A stretch of DNA of 64,000 nt. Origin: Stenotrophomonas indicatrix. GTDB lineage: Bacteria; Pseudomonadota; Gammaproteobacteria; Xanthomonadales; Xanthomonadaceae. The DNA lies in NCBI GenBank assembly GCA_041545745.1, contig CP168152.1, positions 1,486,001-1,550,000 on the forward strand, given 5' to 3'. The position numbers and the translations under genes were made by a program. Shown in pieces: positions 12,769-15,822 of this stretch. Position 1 is the stretch's first letter; each line of letters opens with the position of its first letter. The notes beneath the pieces were generated by a model that had not been told where the DNA came from, made no database searches, and saw only the letters and a list, made by a program, of their open reading frames with translations.

Positions 12769-13662
12769 CTACTCCGAGAACTGGAAGAACGGCGGTTTGA
12801 TCGCTTCGCGCCAGTACGACTCGTCGGCCATGTAGAAGCCCTGCGCGCGGGCCTTGGCGAACCACGTCGCCGCGGCATCCACGTTCTTCTGCAGGCCATC
12901 GCCGCCGCGGCCGAGTGCCAGCCCGGCCAGGTACTGGCCATACACGTTGCCCTGTGCAGCGGCACGCTCATACCAGCGCAGCGCTTCGGTCTTGTCCTGC
13001 ACCACGCCGATGCCGGCCTCGTACAGCGTGCCCAGGTCCACCTGCGCTTCGGCATCGCCGCGCGCGGCACGGCGCTGGATGCGGGCGATCACCGGGTTCG
13101 GTGAAGCGTCAGTGCTGAGCGGAGTGCCGGGCTTCGCGGACCCGCTGGTGGCATCGCGCAACGGCTGCAGCTTGTACAGCTGGCGCAGGTAGACCGCGTG
13201 GCGCAGGCGCCAGCGCAGTGCGCCCTCCATGTCGCCTCGTCGCTCGTACCACGTCTCCAGATCGCTCATCGCATACGGCGAGCCGTGATAGGCGGCGCTG
13301 TGGTACCAGCGATAGGCCTTGCGCGCGGAGGGTTTGAGCACGACCGCGTCGGGCTTCTGCGGAGTGTCACCACTGTCCAGTCGGCCGCGCTCCAGGATCG
13401 CACCGAGCTGTTCCTCTGCACTGGTGGTGCGGTGGGTGCGCGGCGTGGTGGCGGCGGCGCGCGCGTACCAGTCCAGTGCGCGCACGTCGTTGCGGTACTG
13501 GTACAGCTTGGCCACGCGTAGCGCCGAATCGAACTGGCCATCGGCAGCTGCGGCCAGGGCGTCGCGTTCGCTGTCATCGACCGGGCGGGTGGACGTGGTC
13601 GCGCAGCCGGCCAGGGCGATCAGGGCCAGGATGGGCAGCAGGTGACGGTAGGAAGGGGTCAT
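12769..13662 (-). CDS. Sel1-repeat (TPR-like) lipoprotein
   Basis: 297 residues with a lipoprotein signal (ALIALAGC, Cys about 19), so likely membrane-anchored and periplasmic. SLR/TPR-like repeats follow, the clearest being GDAEAQVDLGTLYEAGIGV and AAQGNVYGQYLAGLALGRG, with ALRWYERAAA. Such proteins usually scaffold other proteins; no specific partner is evident. Transcribed away from asnB, with about 115 bp between its start and the asnB leader peptide. Confidence 0.8.
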   Translation of the reverse strand: MTPSYRHLLPILALIALAGCATTSTRPVDDSERDALAAAADGQFDSALRVAKLYQYRNDVRALDWYARAAATTPRTHRTTSAEEQLGAILERGRLDSGDTPQKPDAVVLKPSARKAYRWYHSAAYHGSPYAMSDLETWYERRGDMEGALRWRLRHAVYLRQLYKLQPLRDATSGSAKPGTPLSTDASPNPVIARIQRRAARGDAEAQVDLGTLYEAGIGVVQDKTEALRWYERAAAQGNVYGQYLAGLALGRGGDGLQKNVDAAATWFAKARAQGFYMADESYWREAIKPPFFQFSE

Positions 13663-13741
13663 CCATGGGTTCCGGAAAGCGGGCAGGGGATTATCCGGGT
13701 CGGCACCGGCGTGGCCGCTGAATCGGTTGCCATCGCAACAG

Positions 13742-13770
13742 TTGCGCCGCGCCGGAAACCCGGTTACGGT
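13742..13770 (+). promoter_or_regulatory. Candidate promoter of the asnB leader
   Basis: TTGCGC (13742-13747), a 17-bp spacer, then TACGGT (13765-13770). Transcription would start about 13777, practically at the leader-peptide ATG (13778), so the leader would be translated without a Shine-Dalgarno. Assigned by inspection only. Confidence 0.4.
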
Positions 13771-13777
13771 CGGATCC

Positions 13778-13879
13778 ATGTCGCTCCGCCTGGCCACCGC
13801 CGTCAACAACACCAACCGCAATAATCTGCGTGCGAATAATCGTGCGCGGCCGATGCGGGACTGCGCCCTGGGTAGATAG
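13778..13879 (+). CDS. Asparagine-rich leader peptide of asnB
   Basis: A 33-codon ORF (ATG 13778, TAG 13877) too short for normal gene finding. Residues 10-21 read NNTNRNNLRANN: seven Asn codons (both AAC and AAT) in twelve, directly upstream of an asparagine synthetase gene. The ORF ends before an intrinsic terminator (13905-13935) that precedes asnB. By analogy with trp, his and leu leaders, ribosome stalling on Asn codons when charged tRNA-Asn is scarce should favour read-through into asnB. The coding sequence itself contains one strand of the proposed antiterminator (13847-13859). Existence of the ORF is seen; regulation is inferred. Confidence 0.72.
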   Translation: MSLRLATAVNNTNRNNLRANNRARPMRDCALGR

Positions 13880-13953
13880 ACAGCAACATACGCCCGGACA
13901 CCAGAAAACCCGCATCGGCCGATGCGGGTTTTTTTGTGCCCGGGCGCAGTCCC
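13847..13953 (+). promoter_or_regulatory. Attenuator region: competing antiterminator and terminator hairpins
   Basis: The 13-nt sequence CGGCCGATGCGGG occurs twice (13847-13859 and 13916-13928). The strand CCCGCATCGG (13909-13918) can pair with the second copy, making the terminator stem, or with the first copy inside the leader ORF, making an antiterminator. In addition GGGACTGCGCCC (13857-13868) is exactly complementary to GGGCGCAGTCCC (13942-13953), which could enclose the terminator. The alternatives are mutually exclusive, as in amino-acid attenuators. Confidence 0.65.
13905..13935 (+). terminator. Intrinsic terminator in the asnB leader
   Basis: A-run, perfect inverted repeat AACCCGCAT/ATGCGGGTT with a CGGCCG loop, and seven T's (13929-13935), all upstream of asnB and after the leader-peptide stop. 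Its position before the structural gene marks it as an attenuator. Confidence 0.8.
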
Positions 13954-14020
13954 ACCCGGGCCTGGATGGCCGGTCGAACACCTTTCCCCCGTGTACTTCC
14001 CCACAACAGGAGTTCCACCC

Positions 14021-15712
14021 ATGTGTTCGATCTTCGGTATTTTCGGCCTGCAGGCCGGTGACGATCTTCCTTCCCTGCGCCGCCATGCGCTGGAGCTGTC
14101 GCAGCGCCAGCGTCATCGTGGCCCGGACTGGAGCGGCGTGTACCTGGACGAGGGCGCGCTGCTGGTGCACGAGCGCCTGGCCATCGTCGATCCGGCAGGC
14201 GGCTCGCAGCCGCTGCTGTCCGAAGACGTGCAGCTGGCGCTGGCGGTCAACGGAGAGATCTACAACCACCAGCAGCTCAAGGCCGGCCTCGTCGAAGCCT
14301 ATGCCTTCCAGACCGGTTCGGACTGCGAGGTGATCAACGCGCTGTACCGCCAGGGCGGATCGCCGGCGCAGTGGCTGGAACAGCTCAACGGCATCTTCGC
14401 CTTCGCTCTGTGGGACCGTGCAGCCGGCCGTGTACTGGTGGCGCGCGACCCGGTCGGCGTGGTGCCGCTGTACTGGGGCCATGATGCGCAGGGACGGTTG
14501 CGCGTAGCGTCTGAAATGAAGGCGCTGGTGGATACCTGCGCCGACGTTGCCCAGTTCCCGCCGGGCCACTACTACGACAGCGCCAGCGGTGAGCTGGTGC
14601 GCTACTACCAGCAGCCGTGGCGCGAGTACGACGACGTGCAGGGCCGCCAGGCCGATCTCGCCGAGCTGCGCCAGGCCTTTGAACATGCGGTCGAACGCCA
14701 GTTGATGAGTGACGTGCCATATGGCGTGCTGCTGTCGGGTGGGCTGGATTCGTCGCTGGTTGCTGCCGTGGCAGCACGTTATGCGCGGCGTCGCATTGAA
14801 GATGGCGGCCAGAGCGAAGCGTGGTGGCCGCGCCTGCATTCGTTCGCCATCGGCCTGAAGGGTTCGCCGGATCTGGCCGCTGCTGCGGTCGCCGCCGAAG
14901 CGCTGGGCACGGTGCACCACGGCTTCGAATACACCTTCGAGGAAGGCCTGGATGTGCTGCCGGAGGTGATCCGCCACATTGAAACCTACGACGTCACCAC
15001 CATCCGCGCCTCCACGCCGATGTTCCTGCTGGCGCGTCGGATCAAGGCAATGGGCGTGAAGATGGTGCTGTCCGGCGAGGGCAGTGACGAGATCTTCGGC
15101 GGCTATCTTTACTTCCACAAGGCACCGGACGCGCGCGAATTCCACCAGGAACTGGTGCGCAAGCTCGATGCCCTGCACAACTACGATTGCCTGCGCGCCA
15201 ACAAGTCGATGATGGCCTGGGGCGTGGAGCCGCGCGTGCCGTTCCTGGACCGCGAGTTCCTCGACGTGGCGATGCGTTTCGATGCCGCGCACAAGATGGT
15301 CGGCGCCGGCTTCGGTGGTCGTCGCATCGAGAAGGCGGTGCTGCGCGAGGCCTTCGAGGGCTACCTGCCGGATAGCATCCTGTGGCGACAGAAGGAGCAG
15401 TTCAGCGATGGCGTCGGCTACGGTTGGATCGACGGCCTGAAGGCGCATGCCGAAGCACAGGTCAGCGACCGCGTACTGGCCGCCGCCGACAAGCGTTTCC
15501 CGCACAACCCGCCGCAGACCAAGGAGGCGTACTACTACCGTCACCTGTTCGAGCAGTTCTTCCCCAGTCATGCGGCGGCTGAAACCGTGCCGGGCGGGAA
15601 GTCGATCGCCTGTTCCTCGCCGGCAGCCATTGCCTGGGACGCCAGCTTCGCCGCCGCCGCCGATCCGTCGGGCCGCGCCATCGCCGGCGTGCACGAGCAG
15701 GCGTTGGCCTGA
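14021..15712 (+). CDS. asnB: Asparagine synthetase B, glutamine-hydrolysing
   Basis: 563 residues. It starts MCSIFGIFGLQ with the catalytic Cys2 of class II glutamine amidotransferases; RHRGPDWSG, LAIVDP and NGEIYNH complete that domain. The C-terminal synthetase domain has the PP-loop SGGLDSSL (about 240) and SGEGSDEIFGGY. It makes asparagine from aspartate, glutamine and ATP in the cytoplasm. A good AGGAG (14008-14012) precedes the ATG. The gene is preceded by the Asn-rich leader and terminator described separately. Length is normal for bacterial AsnB. Confidence 0.96.
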   Translation: MCSIFGIFGLQAGDDLPSLRRHALELSQRQRHRGPDWSGVYLDEGALLVHERLAIVDPAGGSQPLLSEDVQLALAVNGEIYNHQQLKAGLVEAYAFQTGSDCEVINALYRQGGSPAQWLEQLNGIFAFALWDRAAGRVLVARDPVGVVPLYWGHDAQGRLRVASEMKALVDTCADVAQFPPGHYYDSASGELVRYYQQPWREYDDVQGRQADLAELRQAFEHAVERQLMSDVPYGVLLSGGLDSSLVAAVAARYARRRIEDGGQSEAWWPRLHSFAIGLKGSPDLAAAAVAAEALGTVHHGFEYTFEEGLDVLPEVIRHIETYDVTTIRASTPMFLLARRIKAMGVKMVLSGEGSDEIFGGYLYFHKAPDAREFHQELVRKLDALHNYDCLRANKSMMAWGVEPRVPFLDREFLDVAMRFDAAHKMVGAGFGGRRIEKAVLREAFEGYLPDSILWRQKEQFSDGVGYGWIDGLKAHAEAQVSDRVLAAADKRFPHNPPQTKEAYYYRHLFEQFFPSHAAAETVPGGKSIACSSPAAIAWDASFAAAADPSGRAIAGVHEQALA

Positions 15713-15714
15713 CC

Positions 15715-15783
15715 CAAAAAAGGGGACGGAGGGGATTAAGTCGCTTATGCCACAAACGACTTAATCCCCTCCGTCCCCTTTTT
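15715..15783. repeat. Long REP-like palindrome between asnB and the antiporter gene
   Basis: Inverted arms of about 28 bp (core GGGGACGGAGGGGATTAAGT and its complement) around a 13-bp centre, with A's on one side and T's on the other. It can act as a bidirectional terminator. The G-rich arm resembles dispersed palindromes of xanthomonads; family membership is from memory, not tested. Confidence 0.7.
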
Positions 15784-15822
15784 GCGACGTATCATCGGCG
15801 CCCTGCACATTGGGGAATGTTC

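Follow-up and report, generated by a model that had tools for sequence, protein, structure and literature searches.

A probable asparagine-sensing attenuator with a putatively leaderless leader peptide upstream of asnB in Stenotrophomonas indicatrix and related bacteria

What is the function of a short, asparagine-rich open reading frame (ORF) and a transcription terminator that are located directly upstream of asnB, the gene for asparagine synthase B, in Stenotrophomonas indicatrix? We addressed this question for a window of 64,000 nucleotides (nt), that is, the whole stretch of DNA that was analysed (contig CP168152.1 of assembly GCA_041545745.1, positions 1,486,001 to 1,550,000 of the forward strand; positions given below are those of the window), and for the asnB upstream regions of related genomes. 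The results make it very probable that this element is a ribosome-mediated transcription attenuator, which senses charged tRNA-Asn and controls asnB. The locus holds the parts that define such attenuators: an ORF with control codons, an intrinsic terminator, an antiterminator that excludes this terminator and would lie clear of a stalled ribosome, and a target gene whose product makes the sensed amino acid. An initial annotation of this DNA had already proposed an asparagine attenuator. This proposal is now supported by in-frame runs of asparagine codons, by a pairing that is kept between clades, by the terminator, and by a promoter-like pair of hexamers in the relatives.

Asparagine codons and a promoter-like sequence ahead of asnB

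The leader ORF (13778-13879, plus strand) comprises 33 codons and reads MSLRLATAVNNTNRNNLRANNRARPMRDCALGR*, the asterisk denoting the stop codon. Asparagine occupies residues 10, 11, 13, 15, 16, 20, and 21, which amounts to seven control codons in 12 (13805-13840, plus strand; AAC AAC. AAC. AAT AAT... AAT AAT, with dots for other codons). Nowhere else in the six frames of the 64 kb do 12 codons include six or more for asparagine (maximum seven; the other frames reach three or four). The ORF is followed by an intrinsic terminator on the same strand (13905-13935), recognized by sequence and folding, which consists of strand 3 (13905-13918), strand 4 (13919-13932), and a tract of seven T residues (13929-13935); its two arms read AAAACCCGCATCGG/CCGATGCGGGTTTT. 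Moreover, an exact 13-nt duplication, CGGCCGATGCGGG, is found at 13847-13859 and 13916-13928. ORF, asparagine run, terminator, and duplication had all been described by the initial annotation, and each proved to be exact in position. A strict scan of the window for σ70 promoters and terminators did not list the plus-strand leader terminator, perhaps because part of the T run was taken into the stem.

A trivial explanation would be the chance occurrence of an asparagine-rich ORF beside a terminator. The duplication alone is the weaker evidence here, since 18 of the 602 segments of 212 nt in the 64 kb contain one of 13 nt. But the arrangement recurs in three families, the asparagine run is unique in the 64 kb, and the distance between the leader start and the promoter-like sequence is nearly constant. 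We therefore regard the probability of a chance neighborhood as negligible.

For the comparison with relatives, 110 loci were collected. A scan of named genomes for AsnB contributed the best 80 of 586 loci, and a family search, which gave a match in 268 of 297 genomes, contributed the 30 best-scoring loci including our own. Leaders were identified by a rule that demanded at least three asparagine codons in 12. An asparagine-rich ORF was present by this rule in 97 of the 110 loci, and 96 of the 97 also have a hairpin no more than 110 nt after the stop codon. Locus L082, with a distant AsnB and an ORF attributed to chance, was discarded manually; L084 was likewise marked for removal and lacks the hairpin. 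In the remaining 95 loci (65 of the 80 named and all 30 family loci), an asparagine-rich short ORF and a hairpin precede asnB. They represent 93 distinct leader-bearing loci, many of which are close relatives and not independent. The 15 loci without this layout are L033, L043, L045, L072, L073, and the distant L076-L085; at L045, the contig ends and only 60 nt of upstream sequence are available.

A comparison with relatives had been named as a check by the initial annotation, and it showed that the asparagine codons are conserved and in frame. The 93 leaders contain 588 of them in the leader frame versus two and four in the other two frames, a contrast that arises partly by construction because the search rule demanded at least three asparagine codons in 12. 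The recurrence of this layout in different families does not follow from the rule. The share of AAT among the asparagine codons also differs between the leaders and the asnB genes that follow them at the 93 loci (294/588 versus 85/794; Fisher p 5e-60, with loci that are not independent). Other codons ending in C or T carry the T in 237 of 1452 cases in the leaders (12 codon pairs) and in 4211 of 27112 cases in the asnB genes (15 pairs). Among the C/T-ending codons compared, the shift to T is thus confined to those for asparagine. AAU-rich runs would be sensitive to the queuosine state of tRNA-Asn. The AAT excess could accordingly mean that the element senses something other than asparagine charging, such as this queuosine state or slow decoding in general. 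However, AT-rich codons may merely keep the run unstructured, and asparagine codons before an asparagine synthase gene point to asparagine charging, which renders this alternative unlikely.

Comparison with the relatives also revealed a promoter-like pair ahead of the leader (13742-13770, plus strand). It consists of the -35-like hexamer TTGCGC (13742-13747), a 17-nt spacer, and the -10-like hexamer TACGGT (13765-13770), 7 nt after which the leader ORF begins. We infer an RNA start at about 13777-13778, at the leader AUG or one to two bases from it. The word TTG[CT] is located 35-37 nt ahead of the leader start in 92 of the 93 loci and 39 nt ahead in the remaining one, the start codon having been picked among in-frame candidates by a TTG[CT] 33-40 nt upstream. 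Among the other ATGs of the same regions, only 8 of 415 have this word at 35-37 nt. The base immediately before the start codon is C in 89/93 loci, and a -10-like hexamer was scored 5-8 nt before the start in 80/93. An AGGA-like word, a possible Shine-Dalgarno site, precedes the leader ATG in 16/93 loci; ahead of asnB, a Shine-Dalgarno-like word can be read in 88/93 loci (AGGAG at 14008-14012 on the plus strand in our window). A strict σ70 consensus scan of the window found no promoter for the leader. Taken together, the leader mRNA is probably leaderless and the ORF probably translated from it as such. The initial annotation had called the leader nearly leaderless, and the promoter-like spacing behind this remark is conserved among the relatives.

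Alternative pairing, ribosome position, and the proposed mechanism

We numbered the strands such that 1:2 is the protector, 2:3 the antiterminator, and 3:4 the terminator. Strand 2, GATGCGGG (13852-13859, plus strand), lies inside the leader ORF and pairs with 13909-13916 in strand 3. Folding of the region 13770-13935 was matched by only 1 of 200 shuffles (z -2.75). The six-base core of strand 3 finds six of six pairs in the leader end in 59/93 loci and at least five in 90/93, while shuffled leaders gave a mean of 5.7 and a maximum of 13 full matches in 200 rounds. In 76/93 loci, the native leader end (33 nt) matches or surpasses 95% of its shuffles in binding to strand 3. In a cross-locus matrix, 83/93 leaders bind their own strand 3 better than the mean of the others'. 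Strands 2 and 3 change together between clades, where GCGGGT occurs with ACCCGC and GCGGGC with GCCCGC. Five loci, possibly derived from a single event, combine CCTGC in strand 3 with CAGG in strand 2 while strand 4 keeps its G, so that 2:3 has an A-U pair there and 3:4 is left with only G-U. This pattern hints at selection on the 2:3 pairing and not on the terminator alone.

These findings bear on the idea that the leader has a function of its own, either as a small protein or through the terminated RNA of about 158 nt acting in trans as a small RNA; the terminator would then merely end this transcript, and asnB would have its own promoter. There is a precedent for action in trans in Sinorhizobium, namely rnTrpL and its peptide, according to PMC7298713. 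But the peptide seems, by eye, poorly conserved apart from the asparagine and strand 2-forming codons, and a bare terminator would not need the co-change of its arm with a strand in the leader. Nor is the terminator needed to end an upstream gene, since the neighbor on that side is a divergent minus-strand ORF (12772-13662) that begins just upstream of the leader, and no plus-strand gene is located there. We consider a function of this kind very unlikely and return to the attenuator.

RNA folding predicts that the protector (13816-13859, plus strand) is formed by CCGCA (13816-13820) and TGCGG (13854-13858), which enclose a hairpin (13826-13835/13840-13849). In 87/93 loci, strand 2 is predicted to be paired upstream with a mean probability above 0.5 before arm 3 exists, a count that comes without a shuffled control. 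The leader without its terminator (13778-13895) folds no better than many shuffles (32 of 200 as good; z -0.90). In the alignment, three pairs of the inner hairpin are changed on both sides, with only 81.5% of the cells paired. A further pairing had been pointed out by the initial annotation: GGGACTGCGCCC (13857-13868) is the 12-nt reverse complement of 13942-13953, just past the terminator. This complementarity is indeed present in our window but it is not conserved, as a complement of at least 8 nt occurs in only 9 of the 93 loci, eight of them with maltophilia-type leaders. In comparison with shuffles, 8/93 loci attain p 0.05. We therefore rejected it as a general part of the element, since it is almost confined to close relatives.

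A ribosome extends about 9-10 nt beyond the codon that occupies its A site. Strand 2 starts 11 nt past the last asparagine codon in 49/93 loci, and within 10-14 nt in 70/93. Given this footprint, strand 2 would remain free while a ribosome stalls on the asparagine run and would be covered once the ribosome advances. In 61/93 loci, only 13-16 nt separate the beginning of strand 2 from the stop codon; with such a footprint, a ribosome that has reached the stop would be expected to cover the strand. The initial annotation saw a weak point in the stop codon lying 18 nt past the duplicated strand. This distance is correct for our window, but as a general weakness it does not hold in view of the 61 loci.

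We propose the following mechanism. Transcription would start at or within one to two bases of the leader AUG, and ribosomes would load on the bare 5' end. With ample Asn-tRNA, the ribosome would pass the asparagine codons, and strand 2 would either be covered by it or fold into 1:2. With strand 2 sequestered, 3:4 would form and RNA polymerase would stop at the T tract before asnB. If Asn-tRNA is scarce, the ribosome would stall on the asparagine run, which would open 1:2 and leave strand 2 free. Free strand 2 would capture strand 3, so that no terminator forms and asnB is transcribed.

Several observations weigh against this model. As described above, the asparagine counts are conditional on the rule by which the leaders were found, and the five CCTGC loci may go back to a single event. 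Covariation of the 2:3 helix within an alignment of Stenotrophomonas/Xanthomonas-type leaders gave no pair changed on both sides, and the helix hardly varies there. Because 2:3 is too invariant within one clade, its support comes from the comparison between clades. The six-base core is incompletely paired in 34/93 loci, 18 of which have an A-A mismatch at the outer base, and the leaders of some clades bind the strand 3 of another clade equally well or better than their own. The T tracts are short or weak in some of the relatives, and at five loci the best duplex begins upstream of the last asparagine codon. In maltophilia-type leaders, strand 2 is located at -25 to -18 relative to the stop codon; a ribosome waiting at that codon would leave it uncovered, and hiding strand 2 would fall to the protector fold. 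Finally, AsnB may not be the sole source of asparagine in the cell, since two further proteins score above the cut-off of a broad asparagine synthase model (see below).

Distribution of the leader and supply of asparagine

The regulated gene asnB (14021-15712, plus strand) was identified by its match to the asparagine synthase B model NF006949 of NCBIfam (868.6 bits, cut-off 499). The nearest named AsnB among the best 80 of 586 loci is that of S. maltophilia LMG 978, with 96% identity. Directly after asnB, we noticed an extended inverted repeat that is accompanied by a run of T residues (15716-15784; GGGGACGGAGGGGATTAAGTCG and its complement). It resembles either a terminator for asnB or a repetitive element.

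When genomes of the order were drawn evenly, AsnB was present in 71 of 121, and the region upstream of asnB was inspected in each of the 71. The leader layout was found in 34 of the 36 AsnB-bearing genomes of three families (f1, 17/18; f2, 3/3; f12, 14/15) and in none of the 35 AsnB-bearing genomes from the families f4, f5, f7, f9, and f10, although one of these 35 (L167) carries an asparagine leader of another type. A second set of 28 genomes had been chosen for a divergent or missing AsnB and shares two genomes (G040 and G042) with the even draw; here, 12 of 16 f1 loci have no leader. A class-wide search added little, with 5 of 229 genomes matching at its cut-off. Four loci flagged by a loose rule (L115, L156, L161, and L170) were judged to be chance finds, as they have no promoter match and either no hairpin or one of 6 bp.

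In a FastTree phylogeny of 86 AsnB proteins, the 49 leader-bearing rows without exception fall into a single clade with 53 members (SH-like support 99), and the leader label changes five times over the whole tree. The rows were selected by us from a larger set. On reading their sequences, we scored L117 and L119 as carrying the leader, the hairpin finder having missed the former and the promoter rule the latter, and L200, which has a different asparagine leader, was labeled "none". Four rows of the 53-row clade represent genes without a leader: L115 from the same family, and L033, L043, and L072 in records labeled Acidobacteriota, Rhodococcus, and Myxococcota, respectively. The last three look as if the leader was lost upon gene transfer, or as if bins or assemblies were mixed. 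Eleven loci from genomes of the same family (L120-L130) have an AsnB that belongs to another clade, and no asparagine leader precedes it. In family f7, one genome (L167, the same place as L200) has an unrelated-looking asparagine leader, MFAIYNTINTTNNRLLRSAGSF, with a good terminator ahead of asnB; its promoter-like sequence lies further upstream than in the main layout. A follow-up in f7 detected AsnB in 34 of 39 genomes, and among the 30 loci read, only the L167/L200 genome has an asparagine leader. A weak ORF with three asparagine codons was seen at L207 of this family.

If asnB responds to tRNA-Asn charging, the route by which Asn-tRNA is made is of relevance. Profile searches of 21 genomes, 13 of our own genus and one each from f2 to f9, gave matches over the cut-off for AsnRS in all 21, for AsnA in none (one match below the cut-off), and for GatB in three. 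The three GatB genomes belong to families other than f1, f2, and f12 and are all without an AsnB match; within our own genus, GatB is found in 0/13. The genus, which has AsnRS and neither AsnA nor GatB, thus charges tRNA-Asn with free asparagine. The genome itself encodes three proteins of the asparagine synthase family, of which AsnB alone exceeds the cut-off of the AsnB model. The other two, L002 and L003 (G000:C1:2973983-2975185 and 550831-551973), reach 467.5 and 329.5 bits with TIGR01536 (cut-off 267.1), but their top-scoring model is that of the XrtA/PEP-CTERM amidotransferase, below its cut-off. Asparagine would thus be provided by AsnB, possibly by one of the other two proteins, or from outside.

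Comparison with known leader systems

Ribosome-mediated attenuators are known for the trp, his, leu, ilv, phe, and thr operons. A general account of the mechanism is given in PMC1183508. The element described here resembles them in that a short leader ORF contains control codons for the amino acid that is produced, and in that a predicted 1:2 pairing and the 2:3 and 3:4 pairings precede a biosynthetic gene. In contrast to them, asparagine is sensed, the target is asnB, the leader is probably leaderless, and strand 2 lies inside the ORF upstream of the stop codon. A word search of PMC1183508, PMC2965389, and PMC1262725 gave no asparagine case. Likewise, we found no description of an asnB attenuator or an asparagine leader peptide in the literature searched; surveys of proteobacterial attenuators and maps of RNA starts in Xanthomonas could hold one. 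The attenuation logic is thus known, and asparagine as the sensed amino acid is apparently new, as we did not find it described. If our interpretation is correct, asparagine joins the amino acids under leader-peptide attenuation, in a group to which, among others, Xanthomonas, Stenotrophomonas, Lysobacter, Dyella, and Rhodanobacter belong; the tuning of asnB in these bacteria would then be explained. A conserved leaderless leader would also provide a natural test bed for ribosome loading that is independent of a Shine-Dalgarno sequence and timed against RNA polymerase.

T-box leaders linked to asparagine respond to the charging of tRNA-Asn and control asparagine-related genes. One such T-box is known from Clostridium acetobutylicum (Saad et al. 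2012, cited in PMC4206432), and a leader RNA that binds tRNA or a metabolite, as a T-box or riboswitch, could in principle control the terminator ahead of asnB without translation. T-box RNAs bind the tRNA directly and have no leader peptide, whereas the conservation of the asnB leader follows a reading frame. Moreover, an Rfam search of the positions 13000-15000 and of six relatives yielded neither a match at the gathering score nor a T-box; the hits in the window stayed below threshold, some of them to leader families. Direct binding of a ligand by the RNA is therefore highly improbable, and sensing by a translating ribosome remains our preferred interpretation.

Sinorhizobium meliloti belongs to another bacterial class. 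In its trpL/rnTrpL system, the RNA is reported to begin directly with the start codon ATG of the leader ORF (PMC7298713). Both systems would accordingly combine a leaderless leader peptide with an attenuator, the 5' end in the asnB leader being inferred only. They differ in that the S. meliloti leader senses tryptophan and has additional roles in trans, according to the same source.

A further parallel is found in the S. indicatrix genome itself, where a branched-chain leader (with the run ILVLVLIT) and a terminator are located upstream of ilvC (G000:C1:3787839-3788099; L228, L229). A search for ilvC leaders gave something similar in 22 of 60 genomes, and 15 loci were read (L229-L243). In all 15, a TTG is located 36-38 nt before an in-frame ATG. 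As in the asnB leader, a GTGCGGG-like strand lies within the ORF past the control codons, and the promoter-like spacing is alike; the control codons specify Ile, Leu, and Val, and the target gene is a different one. In our genome, the terminator stem of the ilvC leader starts 24 nt after the stop codon. On this basis, the ilvC leader is probably a second leaderless attenuator. The asn and ilvC leaders of this genome align with a score that was reached by none of 1000 shuffles. We nevertheless rejected a common descent of the two attenuators, as the linkers in the ilvC leaders of other genera differ by eye; shared function therefore suffices to account for their likeness. Inspection of the 1500 nt ahead of hisG for a histidine leader found none. 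We see an even chance that leaderless mRNAs are the rule for ribosome-mediated attenuation in this clade of Lysobacterales (asn, and ilvC in the Lysobacteraceae loci read), that the asn attenuator adds a new amino acid, and that its AAU-rich codons may read the quality of tRNA-Asn besides its charging. If so, the 70S ribosome would load once the AUG leaves the polymerase, and translation would be coupled to transcription from the first codon.
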